Below are positions 6,044 through 50,144 of a stretch of DNA of 64,000 nt, in pieces. The notes under the pieces are model-generated. The model was not told where the DNA came from and did no database searches. It worked only from the letters and a program-made list of their open reading frames with translations. The stretch's first letter is position 1; the number at the start of each line of letters is the position of its first letter. The stretch lies in NCBI RefSeq assembly GCF_004337705.1, contig NZ_SKBU01000012.1:62001-126000 (forward strand), written 5' to 3'. The stretch comes from Rubrobacter taiwanensis (GTDB lineage Bacteria; Actinomycetota; Rubrobacteria; Rubrobacterales; Rubrobacteraceae). The position numbers were made by a program, and so were the translations under genes.

Positions 6044-7263
6044 TGGACGCGGGAAGGGTTGAGGCGCGCCTGGAAGAGCTCTTCGAGCTCGCCCGCGACC
6101 CCGGCGGCGGAGCGACGCGGCCTGCCTACTCGCCGGAGGAGGCGCAGGCGATGCGCCTCGTTGCGGAGTGGATGGAGGAGGCCGGGCTCTCCCCCCGGCT
6201 GGACGGCTTCGGTAACCTGTGGGGCCTGCCGCCGGGGGCCGGGCGGTTCGTCACCGGCGGCTCGCACGTGGACACCGTCCCGAACGGCGGCCGCCACGAC
6301 GGCGCTCTGGGGACCGTACTCGCGCTGGAGGCGGCCGAGGGGCTGGACGGCCCGTTCGGCGTGCTGGTCTGCGCCGCGGAGGAGGCCCCGCGGTTCGGGG
6401 CCGGAACTTTAGGCTCTCGCCGGCTCGCCGGGAAGCTCTCCGATGAGGATCTGGCACAGCTGCGCGACGCGGCGGGCGTCTCCGCGCTCGAAGCGCGCGC
6501 GGGGTTCCTGGAGCTGCTCGCCGGCATCCCGCGGCTGGAGGATGCAGACCCGCTCTCGCGCGTGGCGGCGCACGTGGAGGTGCACATCGAGCAGCGCCGC
6601 GATCTCAGGGAGCGGGGCGCGCCGGTGGGGGTCGCAACCGCCGTGGCCGGTCCCGCCCGTTACCGGCTCGTCTTCGCCGGCACCACCGGCCACTCCGGGG
6701 AGACCCGGATGCCGGAGCGCCGGGATGCCCTGTGCGCCGCCGCAGAGACGATCCTGCTCGTCGAACGGCTGGCGCGGGGAGCGGCCTCTACCGTAGCCAC
6801 CGTCGGGACCGTGGGGGTGGAGCCGGGCTCGCTCACCGCCATTCCGGGCCGGGTGGAGCTGGGGCTGGACGTACGCAGCACCGACCCGGAGGAGCGGGAG
6901 GAACTGGTCGCCGCGGTAGCGCGCGGGAGCGGCGAGATAGCCGCCCGGCGCGGCGTACGGTTCTCCGCCCGCAAGCTCTCGGCCGCCGCCCCCGTCCTCA
7001 TGGACGGGCGGTTGGTGGAGCTGGTCGAACGGGTTGCCCGCAGCGAAGGTATCCCGGCGCTCCGGTGCGAGAGCCACGCCGGTCACGATGCCCAGCACCT
7101 CGCCGAAAGGGTGCCGGCCGCGCTGCTGTTTGCCGCCTCGGCCAACGGGGTGAGCCACGCGCCGGAGGAAGCCGTGGACCGGAGGGATCTGGAGCAGGTG
7201 CTCGCGCTGCTCGCGGCACTCATGCCCGAGCTGGCGCGCCGATACGGAGGAGGAGAGAGATGA
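6043..7263 (+). CDS. M20-family amidohydrolase (allantoate/carbamoylase-like), candidate N-formylglutamate hydrolase
   Basis: A metallo-amidohydrolase of 406 aa similar to allantoate amidohydrolases and N-carbamoyl-amino-acid hydrolases. Metal ligands are visible: H75 and D77 ([12 protein letters not shown]), D86, E113-E114 (AAEEAPRFG) and a later His in [11 protein letters not shown] 6043 overlaps the hutH stop (TAGTG). HutF in this operon makes N-formylglutamate, and no classical HutG is present. This enzyme therefore most plausibly releases formate from N-formylglutamate. Allantoate-amidohydrolase-like genes sit between hut genes in other actinobacteria as well. The family is clear; the substrate is inferred. 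Confidence 0.85.
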
Positions 7264-8927
7264 CCGACGAGAAGACCACGACTATAAGGGCTCCGCGCGG
7301 GGCGGAGATCTCCTGCCGCGGCTGGCAGCAGGAGGCCGCTTTAAGGATGCTCATGAACAACCTGGACCCCGAGGTCGCCGAGCGGCCCGAAGACCTGGTA
7401 GTCTACGGCGGGACCGGGAAGGCCGCCCGCAACTGGGAGAGCTTCTGGGCCATAGTCTCGACGCTCCGGCGGCTCGCCGACGACGAGACCCTGCTGGTGC
7501 AGTCCGGCAAGCCGGTCGCCGTGTTCCGCACCAACCCGTGGGCCCCGCGGGTCCTGATCGCCAACTCCCTGCTCGTCCCCGACTGGGCCGACTGGGAGAC
7601 CTTCCGGGAGCTGGAGCGGGCCGGGCTCACCATGTACGGCCAGATGACCGCCGGGTCCTGGATCTACATCGGCACCCAGGGCATCCTGCAGGGCACCTAC
7701 GAGACGTTCGCCGCCGTCGCCGAGCAGAAGTTCGGCGGCACGCTGCAGGGCCGGGTCTGCCTCACCGCCGGGCTCGGCGGAATGGGCGGGGCGCAGCCGC
7801 TCGCCGTCACGATGAACGAGGGTGTTGCCCTCTGCGTCGAGGTGGACCCGCGCCGCATAGAGCGGCGGATTGAGACCGGCTACCTGGACGAACGCGTAGA
7901 CGATCTGGACGGGGCGGTGCGCCGGGCCGAAGAGGCGAAGCGAAACGGCGAGCCCGTCTCCATCGGCATCCCGGGCAACGCCGCCGAGATCTTCCCGGCG
8001 CTCCTGGAGCGCGGGTTTATCCCGGATGCTGTGACCGACCAGACCTCCGCCCACGATCCTTTAGGCGGATACATCCCGGCCGGATATTCGCTGGAGGGGG
8101 CCTCAGAGTTGCGCGAGTCCGATCCGGAGCGCTACGTGGCCGAGGCGCGCCGGAGCATGGCCCGCCACTGCGCGGCGATGGTCGGCTTTATGCGGCGCGG
8201 AGCAGAGACCTTCGACTACGGCAACAACCTGCGCGGCGAGGCGAAGCTGGGCGGCTTTAAGGATGCCTTCGCCTATCCCGGCTTCGTCCCGGCCTACATC
8301 CGGCCGCTCTTCTGCGAGGGCAAGGGGCCGTTCCGCTGGGCGGCCCTCTCCGGGGACCCGCAGGACATCGCCGCCACCGACGAGGCCGTCCTGGAGCTCT
8401 TCCCGGAGGACGGGAAGCTCGCGCGCTGGATCCATCAGGCCCGCGAGAAGGTCCGCTTCCAGGGGCTCCCGGCGCGCATCTGCTGGCTCGGGGCCGGGGA
8501 GCGGCACAAGGCGGGCCTGCGCTTCAACGAGCTGGCCGCCGCCGGCGAGGTCTCCGCTCCCATCGTTATCGGGCGCGACCACCTGGACGCCGGCTCCGTC
8601 GCCTCGCCCTACCGCGAGACCGAGGCGATGGCCGACGGCTCCGACGCCATCGCCGACTGGCCCATCCTCAACGCCCTGCTCAACACCGCGAGCGGCGCGA
8701 GCTGGGTGGCGGTCCACCACGGCGGCGGGGTCGGCATCGGGAAGTCCATCCACGCCGGGGCGCAGGTCGTCGCCGACGGCACCGCAGAGGGCGCCGCACG
8801 CGTCGAGCGGGTGCTCACCAACGACCCCGCCATCGGCGTCGCGCGCCACGCCGACGCGGGCTACGCGCCGGCCCGGGAGGCGGCCCGCAGGCTCGGTCTC
8901 GACCTGCCGATGCTCGACCGTGAGTAG
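7260..8927 (+). CDS. hutU: Urocanate hydratase
   Basis: This 555-residue enzyme converts urocanate to 4-imidazolone-5-propionate using tightly bound NAD+. Family signatures include the early [23 protein letters not shown] (NAD site), [16 protein letters not shown] and the long C-terminal [20 protein letters not shown] segment. The ATG at 7260 overlaps the preceding stop (ATGA) and has GGAGGAGGAGAG immediately upstream. Full length; no defect seen. Confidence 0.97.
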
Positions 8928-15739: not shown

Positions 15740-16029
15740 CGTCCATCCTGAAGTATGCGTGGAGGTGTGCGATCTCCCTTCTCGTGCGCGGCCGGCGCGA
15801 GCCGGGGCATTTGGAAGACCTCGTGGCTCCCTTCACCGCGGGTGTAATCCGCTGGGGCCGGCCGCACGGAGAGTCCCGGACGTAGTTCACCGGGGGAAGC
15901 GCAGATGAGAAAGCTCTAATAGAGAGCGAGAGTGAGAGCATTTTAATCCGTTCCTGAGGCGCGCTTTATGTCGGGGGGCTAAGATTCCTTACCGGGGCGT
16001 CGGCACCGTTTGAGGCACATGGGGAGGCG
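15740..16029. other. Intergenic region with an AT-rich palindrome
   Basis: No convincing gene is seen in these 290 bases. The palindrome CTCTAATAGAG (about 15915-15925) lies about 105 bp before the next ATG. TAAGAT near 15982 could be a -10 box for that gene. The palindrome contains TCTAAT, as do the elements near 18313 and 49046, but the similarity is too short to call them the same site. Confidence 0.3.
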
Positions 16030-16593
16030 ATGCTGAAAGGATCTCCGTTAGGAGCAGGGATTTTCGCCCTTTTGATGATTATGGCCGGCTTCACCTCCGG
16101 GTGGTTCCTCTCCGGGCAGCGCGGCCTTACCGGCGGGGAGATGCCCCCGGGCCGGGAGGGGGTGGAGCTCTCGGCCCCCACCGAGCGGTCGCTGCCGGAG
16201 ACCGACGTTCCCGGTTCGGATATCCCGGAGTTGCCGCGATATCCGGGCTCCGTGATGTTCGAGTACGAACAGAAACTCTACGGGAACATCATGGTCACCA
16301 AGGCCGACTACCTCTCCGCCGATGCGGATGTAGAAGAGGTCAAGGCTTTCTACCGCGACGTGTTCCGGCGTGGCGGCTGGCGGGTGAACGACCTCAGCTT
16401 CTCGCAGGGAGAGTGGGAGTTCTTCGTCGTGAAGGGCGAGCGAGAGGCGACCATAGAGATAGAGCCTGAAGACGGTCTGATCGAGATCGAGATCGAGATC
16501 AGCCGGCCACACCCGACCCCCGCGCAGCAGGCTCCGCCTGCGGTTGTGGGGGATGACGACGACCTCTACGAGGAGTTCGAAGCCGACGACTGA
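16030..16593 (+). CDS. Membrane-anchored acidic hypothetical protein, 187 aa
   Basis: Function not recognised. One N-terminal membrane segment (residues about 7-28, LGAGIFALLMIMAGFTSGWF) is followed by a Pro-rich linker. A compact extracytoplasmic domain spans residues about 65-155 (PRYPGSVMFEYEQKLYG, FYRDVFRRGGW, EWEFFVVKGEREATIEIE). This resembles small lipoprotein-like domains described as yellowish hypothetical folds in many actinobacteria, without an assigned role. The tail is strongly acidic (DDDDLYEEFEADD). GGAGG at 16023-16027 is close to the ATG. It stands alone between uspA and the subtilisin gene. Confidence 0.7.
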   Translation: MLKGSPLGAGIFALLMIMAGFTSGWFLSGQRGLTGGEMPPGREGVELSAPTERSLPETDVPGSDIPELPRYPGSVMFEYEQKLYGNIMVTKADYLSADADVEEVKAFYRDVFRRGGWRVNDLSFSQGEWEFFVVKGEREATIEIEPEDGLIEIEIEISRPHPTPAQQAPPAVVGDDDDLYEEFEADD

Positions 16594-18293: not shown

Positions 18294-18330
18294 ATACATT
18301 GGAGTTCTCTCACATTAGAGGTTTCTAATG
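18294..18330 (-). promoter_or_regulatory. Candidate operator/activator site, copy 1 of a repeated element
   Basis: Directly upstream of the subtilisin -35 box lie three TCTAATG-type half-sites. They are CATTAGA and TCTAATG as an inverted pair four bases apart, then TCCAATG nine bases on. Nearly the same stretch, in opposite orientation, lies upstream of the arginine-rich miniprotein promoter at 49037-49072, with about 29 of 35 positions identical. The AT-rich composition and position next to -35 suggest binding by a shared regulator, which is not identified here. Confidence 0.6.
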
Positions 18331-21896: not shown

Positions 21897-22445
21897 TCAG
21901 CCGAGCTTCGCCTTGAGCTGCTTCAAGCAGCGCGCCCGCGTCGGGCCGATGCTCCCGACGGGCATCCCCAGCCTCTCGGCCACCTTGGCGTAGGAGGGTT
22001 CCTCTGGGGCGAAGTAGAGGGCGAGCAGCAGCTCGCGGCAGCGGGTGTTGAGCTGCGAGAGGCCCTGGTCCAGCCACTCGACCAGCTCCCAGCGCTCCAT
22101 GCTGCGGGCGCTGGAGTCGTCGGGCAGCGGGCTCTCCGGCAAGTCTCCCTCTGCTCCGGTCGTCTCCCGGCGTTTGCGCTCCATCAGCCGCCAGGTGTGC
22201 CGGCGGGCGACCACCGCGAGCCACGGCCCCAGGCGGCTGTCGTCGGCGATTCTGTCTATGCTCTGGAGGAGGATGGAGAAGGTGAGCTGCGTTATATCGG
22301 CGGCGTCCTCGCGCGAGAGGCCGTAGTTGAGCGGGATGGAGAAGACCAGCCGCTCGTAGCGCTTGAACAGCCGGTCCCACGCCCGCCGGTCGCCCCGGCG
22401 GCAGGCCGAGATCAGGGCCGCGTCTGAGGTGTCTCTTCTCAGCAT
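21897..22445 (-). CDS. ECF-type sigma-70 family RNA polymerase sigma factor
   Basis: A 182-residue group 4 sigma factor. Region 2 (AWDRLFKRYERLVFSIPLNYGLSREDAADITQLTF) and region 4 (LNTRCRELLLALYFAPEEPS, then YAKVAERLGMPVGSIGPTRA as the helix-turn-helix) are both clear. An ATG at 22445 and a GTG at 22451 are both possible behind GGAG. It heads the anti-sigma-like/CHAT gene run, which is probably its regulon. A palindrome, AACCG-ATC-CGGTT at 22493-22505, lies 48 bp upstream. Confidence 0.9.
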   Translation of the reverse strand: MLRRDTSDAALISACRRGDRRAWDRLFKRYERLVFSIPLNYGLSREDAADITQLTFSILLQSIDRIADDSRLGPWLAVVARRHTWRLMERKRRETTGAEGDLPESPLPDDSSARSMERWELVEWLDQGLSQLNTRCRELLLALYFAPEEPSYAKVAERLGMPVGSIGPTRARCLKQLKAKLG

Positions 22446-22492
22446 TTGCACCGATCTCCGCCCCGGGAGTCGCTGTTAGAGTTCCCCTCCAG

Positions 22493-22505
22493 AACCGATC
22501 CGGTT
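22493..22505. promoter_or_regulatory. Palindrome upstream of the sigma factor gene
   Basis: AACCG-ATC-CGGTT is a perfect 5-bp inverted repeat with a three-base centre. It lies between the response regulator stop and the sigma factor start. It could be an operator. It is too short and GC-poor in loop context to act as a terminator, and no T-tract follows. Confidence 0.35.
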
Positions 22506-22535
22506 TTCATGAGCGTATTCTAGTCGAGCGGGAGG

Positions 22536-23225
22536 TTACTCGCTCCCGGGGGAGGCGGCCGGGTCGAAGCGGTATCCCGCCCCGCGGATGGTGGTTATAA
22601 GGGAGGGTTCTCCCGGCCGGTCTATCTTGCGCCGCAGGTAGCGGACGTAGACGTCTACTATGTTGGACCCGGGGTCGAAGGAGTAGTCCCAGATCGCTGA
22701 GAGCAGCTGTTGGCGGGAGAGGACCTGCCGCGGGTGGCGTGCGAAGTACTCCAGCAGGGCGAACTCCCGGCTGGAGAGCTCCACTCTCTTCTCCCCCCGC
22801 CACACCCGGCGCGAGAGGAGGTCTATCCTCAGATCTCCCAGCTCCAGCCGGGAGGATCTGGGCTGGTCCGCGCGGCGGGTGAGGGCGTGGATGCGGGCCA
22901 GCAGCTCCTCGAAGGCGAACGGCTTGGTCAGGTAGTCGTCGGCGCCGGAGTTGAGGGCGCTCACCTTGTTCTGCAGGTCGTCGCGGGCGGTCAGCATGAG
23001 CACGGGCAACTCGGGCCGCGTCTGCCGGATGCGCCGCAAGACCTCGTGTCCGTCCATCTCCGGCAGCGAGATGTCCAGCAGTACGAACTCCACCGCCTCG
23101 TCGGCGGCCAGCGCAGCGCCGTCTCGGCCGTTGTCCGCGCTGAGGACCTGGTAGCCGTGCGCCGCGAGGCCGCGCTCCAGCATCCGGACTATCGGGGCCT
23201 CATCTTCGACGACCAGAATTCTCAT
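22536..23225 (-). CDS. OmpR-family response regulator
   Basis: A 229-residue regulator with an N-terminal receiver (phosphoacceptor D51 in FVLLDISLP; K in YLTKPF) and a C-terminal winged helix (SSREFALLEYFARHP, NIVDVYVRYLRRKID, IRGAGYRF). ATG 23225 follows GGAG, with TATACT only 14 bases upstream (23240-23245), so the leader is very short. It is divergent from the sensor kinase, its likely partner. Targets might include the downstream sigma factor gene, which runs in the same direction 90 bp on. Confidence 0.94.
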   Translation of the reverse strand: MRILVVEDEAPIVRMLERGLAAHGYQVLSADNGRDGAALAADEAVEFVLLDISLPEMDGHEVLRRIRQTRPELPVLMLTARDDLQNKVSALNSGADDYLTKPFAFEELLARIHALTRRADQPRSSRLELGDLRIDLLSRRVWRGEKRVELSSREFALLEYFARHPRQVLSRQQLLSAIWDYSFDPGSNIVDVYVRYLRRKIDRPGEPSLITTIRGAGYRFDPAASPGSE

Positions 23226-23239
23226 AGCTCCGGTCACAA

Positions 23240-23247
23240 AGTATAAT
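23240..23247. promoter_or_regulatory. Overlapping divergent -10 boxes
   Basis: The eight bases AGTATAAT read as TATAAT on the plus strand (23242-23247, towards the sensor kinase) and as TATACT on the minus strand (23240-23245, towards the response regulator). Only one direction could be occupied by RNA polymerase at a time, so the two genes would compete for initiation. The -35 regions are weak (TTCTCA on the plus strand). Confidence 0.5.
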
Positions 23248-23302
23248 TGATCTCCCGGCTGCGAGAACGGCACGCCCGCGCAAATACTCTGGAGGGCGGT
23301 AG

Positions 23303-24739
23303 GTGGAACAACCCAAGCGAATACGCTCCCAGCCGCTGCAGATCGCCGTCTCCGCCGTGGGCGGGCTTCTGATCTTTATCGCGGTGGTAGGGGTGGTGGG
23401 CCTGGTTCTCAACTACCGGATCACGGGGGTGACCCAGGAGGCGCTCACCTACGACGTGGAGCTGGAGGATCACGGCGACGACCTGCGGGTGGCCGTTCTC
23501 GACGTCCGCCACTACCAGCGCAACCTCTACTTCGAGGCTCTAACGGGACAGGGGATCTCCAGGACCAGGGTGGCAGATTTCGAGGGTGCGTACGCCACCT
23601 TGCTTCAGGAGATAGACGAGCTGGAGGAGCTCGGCATTCGAGACGAAGACGTGCCCCAACCGGAGGATTTCCGGCGGGTGGCCCGCGAGTACTACGAGGG
23701 GTTCCGCCCAGCGATAGACCTTGAGGCGTCTGATCACAGGGCCTTCCTCGACGCTCACGAAGAGGCTCTGGTGAGGATAGACGAGCTCGAAGCCGCTGCG
23801 CGGCAGATAGACAAGCTGGGCGAGCAGCGGTCGGCGGCGGCGCTGAGCAACGTGCAGCGTACGGCGCAGAACGCGGAGTTCCTGATGCTGGCGGTGCTCG
23901 GAGGGCTTGTCCTGGTCGGGGCGCTGCTGGCGTATGCGGCGTTGCGCGTGGTCGCCGAACTGCGCCGCCTCTACGACAGCGAACAGCGGGCGGCCGAGGC
24001 GCTGGCCCGCGCGAACCAGGCCAAGGCGGACTTCATCGCCGACGCCTCGCACGAGCTGAGGACGCCGCTCACCGTGCTGCACGGGAACGCCCAGATCGGT
24101 CTGCAGCTCGAGGACCGCCCCGAGCAGCGCGAGATCTTCGAGGACATCCTCCGGGAGTCCACCCGGATGTCCCGGCTGGTCGAGGACCTGCTCTTCCTGG
24201 CCCGTTCCGACTCGGCCTCACCGCCGCTGCACAGGGAGCTCGTGGAGGTGCGGTCCTTTCTCTTCGGGCTGGCGGCGCGGGCCGCGGCGCTGGCGCAGGA
24301 GCGCGGCGTCCCCTTCAGCAGGGAGCTCGGCGGCTACGGGACCCTGAATGCAGACGTCGCCCGCATCGAGCAGGCCGTCTTGATCTTCGTGGACAACGCC
24401 GCCAAATACTGCCCGCCCGGGACCCCGGTGAGACTCGTCTCGGAGACCGCGGGCGGCGAGTTGCGCATCACGGTCGAGGACCGGGGACCGGGGATCCCGG
24501 AGGAGGACCTCTCCCGCATCTTCGAGCGCTTCTACCGGGTGGACAAGACCCGGGCGCGCAGGCAGGGCGGTTCCGGGCTCGGGCTCTCCATCGCCCGGAC
24601 CATAGCCGAGGCGCATGGCGGCCGGGTCGAGGCGGAGAGCCGGGTGGGCGAGGGGACGAAGATGACCCTCGCCGTGCCGCTCGCCGCTGGCACCGTCCCG
24701 GAGAGGGACCGCGAAGCGGCGATGGGTGAGGGACGGTGA
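23303..24739 (+). CDS. Membrane sensor histidine kinase
   Basis: A 478-residue kinase. The first membrane helix is at about residues 14-36 and the second at about 192-213. Between them is a helical CHASE3-like extracytoplasmic sensor (residues about 37-190). HisKA follows with the H-box DASHELRTPL. HATPase motifs are DNAAKY (N-box), EDRGPGIP (G1) and GGSGLGLSIA (G2). GTG 23303 is preceded by GGAGGG. Its stop overlaps the start of a lone receiver by four bases, and an OmpR regulator is divergent, so it may phosphorylate either one. Confidence 0.94.
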   Translation: MEQPKRIRSQPLQIAVSAVGGLLIFIAVVGVVGLVLNYRITGVTQEALTYDVELEDHGDDLRVAVLDVRHYQRNLYFEALTGQGISRTRVADFEGAYATLLQEIDELEELGIRDEDVPQPEDFRRVAREYYEGFRPAIDLEASDHRAFLDAHEEALVRIDELEAAARQIDKLGEQRSAAALSNVQRTAQNAEFLMLAVLGGLVLVGALLAYAALRVVAELRRLYDSEQRAAEALARANQAKADFIADASHELRTPLTVLHGNAQIGLQLEDRPEQREIFEDILRESTRMSRLVEDLLFLARSDSASPPLHRELVEVRSFLFGLAARAAALAQERGVPFSRELGGYGTLNADVARIEQAVLIFVDNAAKYCPPGTPVRLVSETAGGELRITVEDRGPGIPEEDLSRIFERFYRVDKTRARRQGGSGLGLSIARTIAEAHGGRVEAESRVGEGTKMTLAVPLAAGTVPERDREAAMGEGR

Positions 24740-48780: not shown

Positions 48781-48811
48781 GAGAGGGCCTCGCCCCTGAC
48801 GAGGCCCTCTC
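48781..48811 (-). promoter_or_regulatory. Strong hairpin between the miniprotein and exporter genes
   Basis: GAGAGGGCCTCG and CGAGGCCCTCTC form a perfect 12-bp stem with a seven-base loop, starting 17 bases after the miniprotein stop. There is no T-tract on either strand. It could be a partial attenuator or a 3-prime stabiliser that makes the miniprotein more abundant than the exporter. Confidence 0.6.
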
Positions 48812-48828: not shown

Positions 48829-48963
48829 TCAGGTGTCCGTGCCCCGGCGCCGGCGGCGACGGTTCCGCCTCCGGCGCCTCCGCCGGCGCCGCCGCGGGCG
48901 GGAGGTGTCGGTGCTCGCCGCGGCGCGCCTCCGGGCCGGGTAGACCGCTCCGAACCAGGCCAT
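48829..48963 (-). CDS. Arginine-rich miniprotein, 44 aa
   Basis: A 44-codon gene. It starts MAWFGAVYPARRRAAASTD and then has a run of ten arginines (residues 24-33), one Asn, and six more arginines (35-40), ending GTDT. Twenty of 44 residues are Arg, with no Lys or Cys. AAGGAGG ends six bases before the ATG, an almost ideal ribosome binding site. A good promoter (TTGTCT-17-TAGGAT) lies upstream and a 12-bp hairpin downstream. The hydrophobic start could be a short membrane-active or leader portion. A protamine-like or rRNA-binding role is possible. I know no family to assign; in GC-rich DNA a CGG/CGC run could arise by chance, but the signals argue for translation. Confidence 0.65.
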   Translation of the reverse strand: MAWFGAVYPARRRAAASTDTSRPRRRRRRRRRRNRRRRRRGTDT

Positions 48964-48996
48964 ATCTCACCTCCTTCTCAACGAGCCTGTACCGGC

Positions 48997-49025
48997 ATCC
49001 TATTGCGGAGGACCGCGCCAGACAA
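48997..49025 (-). promoter_or_regulatory. Promoter of the arginine-rich miniprotein gene
   Basis: On the minus strand TTGTCT (49020-49025) and TAGGAT (48997-49002) are separated by exactly 17 bp. The transcript would start near 48990, giving a leader of about 27 bases that contains the AAGGAGG site. The ABC exporter and kinase genes may be read from the same promoter. Confidence 0.65.
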
Positions 49026-49036
49026 TGGGGATCGGG

Positions 49037-49072
49037 TTAGAAGCCTCTAATGTGAGAAACGTCTAATGTAAT
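49037..49072 (-). promoter_or_regulatory. Candidate operator/activator site, copy 2 of a repeated element
   Basis: Eleven bases upstream of the miniprotein -35 box. Read on the plus strand it has TTAGA and TCTAA as an inverted pair four bases apart, then a second TCTAATG 16 bases after the first. It matches the element at 18294-18330 over about 36 bp, but in the opposite orientation to its promoter. Confidence 0.6.
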
Positions 49073-49089: not shown

Positions 49090-49410
49090 TTACCGGTTCT
49101 CCCGGTGCACGATCCCGGTCACCTCGTCTACCGGCAGGACGAAGGCTATGCCGCGGGCGGGCTCGTTCAGCTTCCCGGACTCCACCACGGCGTCCAGCAC
49201 CGACCGCACCTTCTCCGGCTCCACGAGCGTCAGCAGCACCTCGCGCTCGGCGCTGATCGAGATGCCGAAGAACTTCCGGGCCTCGTGGATGCCGGTTCCC
49301 CGGGCGAGCAGTATGGTTCCGCCTTCCGCCCCGGCTTCGCGCGCCGCGTCCATGACGGTGTTCGCCGAGCCTTTGGGGACTATCGAGACTACCAGCTTGT
49401 ATCCCTGCAT
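49090..49410 (-). CDS. P-II-like nitrogen-regulator-family protein
   Basis: A 106-residue ferredoxin-like-fold protein. YKLVVSIVPKGSANTVMDAAREAGAEGGTILLARGTG matches the GlnB-like superfamily, with the T-loop region HEARKFFGI shorter than in GlnB and no Tyr uridylylation site. The family is the P-II-like type that accompanies DUF1538 membrane proteins. AGGAGT precedes ATG 49410 by five bases. It starts eight bases after the DUF1538 stop; they probably act together, the soluble trimer sensing a ligand and controlling the membrane partner. Confidence 0.85.
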   Translation of the reverse strand: MQGYKLVVSIVPKGSANTVMDAAREAGAEGGTILLARGTGIHEARKFFGISISAEREVLLTLVEPEKVRSVLDAVVESGKLNEPARGIAFVLPVDEVTGIVHRENR

Positions 49411-49418
49411 CTCTACTC

Positions 49419-50144
49419 CTAGCCTGCCGGGTCTCCGAGGATTATTCCCAGGATCAGGACGCACAGAATCGGCCCCAGCGCGGCGAAGGCGACGAGCCCG
49501 AAGCCGAAGACGAGTATGTCCCCGCGGCCCAGGGCGAGCGCCAGCCCGCTGCCCAGGGCTATGGCGAGCGGGACGGTAACCGGCCCGGTGGTGGCGAGCG
49601 CGGCGTCGAAGGCCAGTCCCGTATAGCGCTCCGGAGCGAAGAAAGTGAGAACTATGACCAGCGCCAGCGCCGGGATGAAGAACGGCGTTATCTCCACACC
49701 GAGTACGATGCGCGCTGCCCCGACCGCCACGCCCAGTGCCACCCCGACGGCCACGGTCTGCACGAAGACGGTCGCGCCGAGGGCTCCGGCGGTCAGATCT
49801 TCGACCCGCTCCGCCAGGATTGCGAGCGCGGGTTCTGAGAGCGTGGCGCCATAGCCGAGGGTCAGACCGAAGACAACGGCCAGTACCAGCGAGCCCCGTT
49901 GCGCCAGTGCCCCGGAGGCGGATTCTCCGAGCGGTAGCAGCCCGATCTCCAGCCCTTTGAGGAAGATGGCGAGCCCGATCACGGTGAGCAGAAGCCCGAT
50001 CGAGACCTCCTTCCAGTTCCTCAGGGGCTCGCGCAGCACGATGAGGTGGAAGATGAGCAGGATCCCGATGATCGGGGCGACGCTCCGGAGCGTTCCGGAC
50101 CCGGTGTTCTTCACCGCTTCTAGAACCGTCCGTAGCAGTTCCAC
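49419..50144 (-). CDS. DUF1538 membrane protein
   Basis: A 241-residue protein with about six hydrophobic segments. The DUF1538 motifs GLEIGLLPLGE, GLTLGYGATLSEPALAILA and GLAFDAALATTGPVTVPLAIALG are clear. The family often occurs as a tandem-repeat protein of about twice this length or as two adjacent genes; only one copy is present here. The GTG at 50144 has GGAGG about 11 bases upstream. Its paired P-II-like gene suggests a regulated small-molecule carrier. The substrate is unknown. Confidence 0.85.
   Translation of the reverse strand: MELLRTVLEAVKNTGSGTLRSVAPIIGILLIFHLIVLREPLRNWKEVSIGLLLTVIGLAIFLKGLEIGLLPLGESASGALAQRGSLVLAVVFGLTLGYGATLSEPALAILAERVEDLTAGALGATVFVQTVAVGVALGVAVGAARIVLGVEITPFFIPALALVIVLTFFAPERYTGLAFDAALATTGPVTVPLAIALGSGLALALGRGDILVFGFGLVAFAALGPILCVLILGIILGDPAG

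Follow-up and report, generated by a model that had tools for sequence, protein, structure and literature searches.

A 44-codon arginine-rich gene of Rubrobacter taiwanensis belongs to a small-protein family encoded ahead of MsbA-like ABC exporters

Here we describe a family of small proteins in which a constant head is joined to tails of quite different low-complexity chemistry. The starting point is an arginine-packed gene in a 64,000-nucleotide stretch of Rubrobacter taiwanensis DNA (the window), which gene finders would probably overlook. Judged from its sequence, the window ORF is a genuine small-protein gene: it is conserved and under selection among relatives, stands in a module with an exporter, and shares upstream repeats with other copies. 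A gene of only 44 codons, whose product has no match to a Pfam or NCBIfam family, stands at the head of an exporter module that recurs in several actinobacterial families as well as in a few other phyla. Among open-licence papers, we found no description of the peptide or of the module.

The small gene in the window

The minus-strand ORF (Table 1) is translated as MAWFGAVYPARRRAAASTDTSRPRRRRRRRRRRNRRRRRRGTDT, in which the head, MAWFGAVYPA, is followed by a segment of Ser/Thr and Asp/Asn, arginine runs of 10 and 6, and the tail GTDT. Translation and residue count agree with the original prediction of a 44-residue protein with 20 arginines in runs of ten and six. The AAGGAGG described there is present six bases from the ATG (at 48963), and a perfect 12-bp stem, GAGAGGGCCTCG/CGAGGCCCTCTC, likewise follows the stop codon, with 1 T in the 8 bases beyond the hairpin. 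The claimed promoter with 17-bp spacing held up in part: TTGTCT-N17-TAGGAT can be read at the expected distance, but it is weak, with 8/12 consensus bases, and was missed by the consensus scan, which found neither a sigma-70 promoter nor an intrinsic terminator at the window copy. A DNA search of the same genome with the peptide region returned the window itself and short weak matches only, one of which pointed to a repeat site near 18.3 kb. Upstream of the peptide gene, on the same strand, a P-II-like protein adjoins a DUF1538 membrane protein (49090-50144).

Table 1. Features of the window discussed in the text
Feature	Position	Strand	Basis or remark
Arg-rich small protein gene, 44 aa	48829..48963	-	stop included; frame, start, SD, conservation
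Shine-Dalgarno (SD) AAGGAGG	48970..48976	-	read from sequence; SD retained in relatives
Perfect 12-bp hairpin 3' of stop, no T-run	48781..48811	-	1 T in the following 8 bases
Weak sigma-70-like TTGTCT-N17-TAGGAT	48997..49025	-	8/12 consensus bases, under scan threshold
Repeats ATTAGACGTTTCTCAC-ATTAGAGGCTTCTAAC, common to other copies; probable OmpR-type regulator site	49022..49068	-	sequence model; match partly by construction
ABC exporter, 607 aa	46923..48746	-	ABC_membrane + ABC_tran (Pfam); no peptidase domain reported
Ser/Thr protein kinase, 278 aa	46090..46926	-	overlaps exporter stop; HLDLKPSN catalytic loop intact
Second repeat-model match	15932..15971 (repeats 15898-15971)	+	before membrane/lipoprotein-like gene 16030-16593
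ATTAGA-N4-TCTAAT site	18314..18329		before subtilase-like gene
Sigma-factor-like gene	21897..22451	-	counterpart of G035/G031/G020 module gene; by eye
Response regulator	22536..23273	-	divergent from the histidine kinase gene at 23303..24739; ORF and reading by eye
Histidine kinase	23303..24739	+	related to one beside small ORF in G035/G031

Conservation and selection within Rubrobacteraceae

An HMM profile built from eight peptide copies was run on 39 Rubrobacteraceae genomes and recovered 16 copies at E <= 8.8e-6, distributed over 10 genomes. This count leaves out the two lowest-ranking profile hits, in G024 (E 0.006) and G062 (E 0.0095), and single-sequence matches in G015 and G027 (E < 0.01) were dropped because the profile did not recover them. 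The start codon, SD and arginine run, which had been singled out from the outset for comparison with relatives, all recur among the family copies, as does the peptide layout of head, Ser-Thr-Asp-Asn segment, arginine run and short polar end.

Selection was assessed on 22 hand-picked pairs that share members and pool Rubrobacteraceae with Streptomyces, for which pN/pS, to be read descriptively and with no probability attached, was 0.17 for the head (first ~10 codons; 42.3 synonymous against 24.7 nonsynonymous differences) and rose to 0.42 over the tail (158.2 against 229.8). Synonymous differences are in excess across these pairs, and this shows that the predicted peptide is under purifying selection, the protein sequence being what is kept. 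Since frame, start, SD and arginine run recur in relatives and are accompanied by this synonymous excess, the window ORF is more than a product of chance.

The exporter module in the family

The order of elements in the window is small ORF, hairpin, MsbA-like ABC exporter and Ser/Thr kinase. Exporters were found in 12/39 Rubrobacteraceae genomes at E <= 1e-70, nine of which also carry the peptide by profile; the other three are G028, G012 and G060. In G028 the exporter is preceded by a different low-complexity ORF of Asn/Gly/Trp repeats with GPA in its head, and in G012 we found no small ORF of this kind upstream of the exporter. The reverse case is G029, where the profile finds the peptide but the exporter search gave nothing at E <= 1e-70; the peptide is thus able to occur in the absence of this exporter. 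Overall, 10 of the 16 family copies, in eight genomes, lie before an exporter. The profile copy and the exporter of G006 are on separate contigs, and the ORF preceding that exporter is Arg-rich and without the conserved head. The small ORF of G028 corresponds to locus L167 (60-269 of the reverse strand) and is Asn/Gly/Trp-rich rather than Arg-rich.

The catalytic loop of the kinase is kept in 6/7 aligned members. The exception, L096, has a kinase (6803-7537) without some 24 residues that include the catalytic loop, and is either inactive or misassembled.

A small ORF upstream of exporters beyond the family

Contigs were scanned with the membrane half of the exporter, and the best 80 of 183 confirmed loci were taken; these are mostly from Streptomyces, with a few from Thermoleophilia, Chloroflexi, Nitrospirae and Rokubacteria MAGs and three from Rubrobacteraceae. 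With L162 left out for too little upstream sequence, 79 loci were scored for an SD-preceded ORF of 30-95 codons that starts at most 650 nt upstream of the exporter and has the head M-x(1-3)-[FL]-x(2-3)-[LMIVF]-x-P-A. Using this pattern, which was tuned on these same loci from the best 80 of 183, we found a head-motif ORF upstream of 58/79 exporters, against 1/2252 control windows, so that the proposed link with the downstream exporter was borne out. By eye, 12 of the 21 non-matching loci have near-miss heads, among them MAIFSSLLPK, MAVFSNLMPF, MAHALFAAHLPA and MQSGYFSLIAPA, and most of the remainder have some other low-complexity small ORF upstream. For L101, a Rubrobacter MAG, the available upstream stretch contains none.

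As an independent set, 396 genomes of the phylum yielded 14 with the exporter (E <= 1e-60), of which seven lie outside the family and provide nine loci that played no part in tuning. With the pattern fixed, 4/9 of these match, and by eye each of the nine shows a small basic ORF upstream whose head is recognisably alike, as a tandem pair in two cases. Across families, the conserved head can be written M-x-F-x-x-[LMIV]-x-P-A. The distance from small ORF to exporter varies widely among loci, and a kinase motif lies downstream of the exporter in 56 of the best 80 of 183 loci, being missing in 24/80. Taken as sequence predictions, the small-protein family and its exporter module are well supported.

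Proposed function and comparison with known systems

The explanation we favour, to which we give somewhat less than an even chance, is that small peptide, hairpin, exporter and kinase constitute a functional module, with the disordered peptide serving as cargo or regulator of an envelope-stress exporter. The peptide gene is the first of this conserved module and would be transcribed from a promoter of its own, with the hairpin, the exporter and the kinase following; the hairpin between peptide gene and exporter suggests that the peptide is probably produced in excess of the exporter. The head may act as an address that is recognised by the exporter, the kinase or both, and the tail would be the working part, acting extracellularly or at the membrane as exported cargo. 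In its Arg form the tail could bind anionic envelope polymers, and in its His form metals. Alternatively, the peptide may gate the exporter, and it might also be phosphorylated by the module kinase. Counting against the favoured explanation are G029, G012, L101, the 24/80 loci that lack the kinase motif, and the different look of the Streptomyces promoter.

A more ambitious form, possible although we would sooner doubt than accept it, holds that this is a widespread peptide-export system of Actinomycetota belonging to an envelope-stress regulon, in which the head F-x-x-L-x-P-A addresses a dedicated MsbA-like exporter and kinase and the tails (Arg, His/Gly/Asp, Gly/Asn/Trp or Ser/Thr) are exchanged to suit envelope chemistry. 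The head offers a testable address motif for a class of MsbA-like exporters. The exporter itself resembles general MsbA/Sav1866-type pumps and has no C39 domain, which also counts against the favoured explanation. MsbA is its best NCBIfam model (530 bits) and its PDB relatives include MsbA and Sav1866; unlike MsbA, however, it falls under the MsbA cut-off of 602 and is consistently preceded by a small ORF.

The arrangement calls to mind those bacteriocin and RiPP precursors that have an ABC exporter of their own. Like these, the family has a small gene that adjoins an ABC exporter gene (58/79 loci; 9/9 by eye), a conserved head with a variable tail, tandem copies, and a hairpin between peptide gene and exporter gene, with the exporter in the module. 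Unlike them, it does not combine a GG-type leader with a C39-bearing exporter: no double-glycine cleavage site was found in the window translation, no C39 peptidase domain was found by Pfam in the window exporter, and the tail is a low-complexity charged or polar sequence. Apart from the kinase, no modification enzyme was recognised among neighbours inspected by eye. This kinase does match class III/IV lanthipeptide synthetase models (LanL, 84.4 bits; LanKC, 26.8 bits), but the scores are far under the cut-offs of 650 and 575 and the 278-aa protein is a kinase domain only, so that its assignment as a lanthipeptide synthetase was rejected. The peptide profile had no match in the PDB at E <= 1.

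Tail composition and intracellular alternatives

All 15 Rubrobacteraceae copies measured carry a net charge of +10 to +20. Such values would suit a polycation that stays in the cytosol and binds nucleic acid, ribosomes or polyphosphate under stress, with the exporter a mere neighbour, as would the copies away from the exporter and the exporter-less genome G029. We consider this unlikely. Among 57 motif peptides from outside Rubrobacteraceae, net charge ranges from -10 to +15 with a median of +1, and 35/57 are at +3 or below; at least 15% His is found in 39/57, at least 20% Arg in 13/57, and both in 2. The usual Streptomyces tail is His/Gly/Asp-rich and near neutral. Arginine richness is therefore one tail form and not what defines the peptide family, and with homologues near neutral the nucleoid-binding or protamine-like role that had been suggested cannot be general. 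Furthermore, linkage to the exporter extends across families and some phyla, and the family searches gave no assignment to a ribosomal or nucleoid protein. The very high arginine content of the Rubrobacteraceae copies resembles that of protamine-like and small ribosomal basic proteins, but most homologues are not polycations. A ribosomal role, also in the original prediction, found no backing in the family searches of the window peptide, and one Streptomyces homologue scored just 12.8 bits to S19 against a cut-off of 146. Whatever their charge, the low-complexity tails are probably disordered. The peptides of L096, L105, L137 and L139 (Nitrospirae/Rokubacteria MAGs) are Ser/Thr-rich in the middle and hydrophobic, with Cys, at the C-terminus, and differ from the charged tails of Actinomycetota.

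A second intracellular alternative, which we rate as similarly improbable, is that of a regulatory subunit: the head would bind exporter or kinase on the cytosolic side, leaving the tail to tune its partner, with no export. The combination of a short conserved head with a free tail would be natural for such a subunit, as would the kinase gene that immediately follows the exporter at many loci; against this, copies occur at distant loci and in the exporter-less G029, and a subunit would have no need of tandem copies.

Copies away from the exporter and the leader hypothesis

Six of the 16 family copies (G020b, G035b, G035c, G031c, G029 and G006b) are not before an exporter and have differing neighbours, the context of G035c being partial because it lies at a contig end. 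All six retain the upstream repeats. In G020b, G029 and G031c, a hairpin directly 3' of the stop codon runs into a T-rich stretch (4 to 6 of the 8 bases that follow), and transcripts terminated there would contain the peptide gene alone. Tandem copies are present in G004, G031, L086, L217 and L219, as expected for a product that acts in trans.

These copies bear on the proposal that the ORF is a translation-stalling leader, in which ribosomes halted on the Arg (or His) run would determine, in cis, how far the exporter gene is transcribed or translated. Attenuator leader peptides are short ORFs with a run of one residue ahead of the gene that they regulate, and the position of the window ORF upstream of the exporter, the intervening hairpin and the Arg or His runs in the tails all recall them. 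Unlike a leader, however, whose regulated gene would always lie directly downstream, the family has six copies elsewhere, three of them with their own T-tailed hairpins; the head is selected and conserved at the protein level, the tail switches among Arg, His/Gly/Asp and other compositions, and tandem copies can stand ahead of a single exporter. The predicted peptide-only transcripts, the variable gap to the exporter and tail exchange together make a cis-acting stalling leader distinctly improbable. ORFs with arginine runs before transporters should hence not be taken as stalling leaders by default, and the genome should be checked for copies elsewhere.

Least probable by far is a chance ORF, for although arginine runs arise by chance in GC-rich DNA, as they do on both strands here (the opposite strand carries a 36-aa Arg-rich ORF), so that the ORF alone proves nothing, and although a single-sequence protein search of 60 relatives gave mostly Arg-rich noise with many low-scoring matches, such an origin would not account for a start, SD and head conserved at homologous places, for purifying selection, or for 58/79 loci against 1/2252 control windows, and the nine untuned loci speak against conservation as an artefact of the pattern.

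Upstream repeats and candidate regulators

The repeats upstream of the copies read ATTAGA-N4-TCTCAC and continue with CTAAT and TTTAAC-like units. A repeat model was built from the peptide copies, so that the match at the window copy arises partly by construction, and it was searched in 6 genomes, where peptide promoters rank at the top, again by construction. Additional sites outside the model precede subtilase-like genes (G016, G020), lipoprotein-like genes (G019, G020 and the window) and genes for Asp-rich secreted proteins (G020, and weakly G000), all gene readings being by eye. The neighbours of the repeat sites suggest an envelope response.

For the favoured explanation, in which the peptide is cargo or regulator of the exporter, a two-component system would probably activate transcription of the peptide gene in Rubrobacteraceae through these repeats, together with envelope genes. 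A histidine kinase and a response regulator adjoin the module in G035 and G031, and the G035 response regulator has Response_reg and Trans_reg_C domains (Pfam). Histidine kinases related to that of G035 by the first 239 residues occur in 16/39 genomes, including 8/9 of those that hold both peptide and exporter. In G029 the repeats are present and no G035-related histidine kinase was found, so the identity of the regulator is one that we infer. In the window, the set of sigma-factor-like gene, response regulator and histidine kinase (21897-24739) lies ~24 kb from the peptide gene; its counterpart is adjacent to the module in G035 and G031.

The element upstream of the Streptomyces copies differs, consisting of GCCATCC and, ~16 bases on, CGTAT. 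As this promoter looks different, the regulator there would not be the same. The GCCATCC/CGTAT element is shared by loci such as L109, L117, L133 and L138 and resembles an ECF sigma promoter. Close to the exporter, L094 (by Pfam) and L128 (by eye) each have a sigma factor together with an anti-sigma factor. Finally, very Asp-rich lipoprotein-like or LPxTG-like proteins were seen at L208:15913-16566, L072:365-829 and L211:3182-3421; two of the three stand behind the same repeats, and their charge is opposite to that of the Arg peptide.
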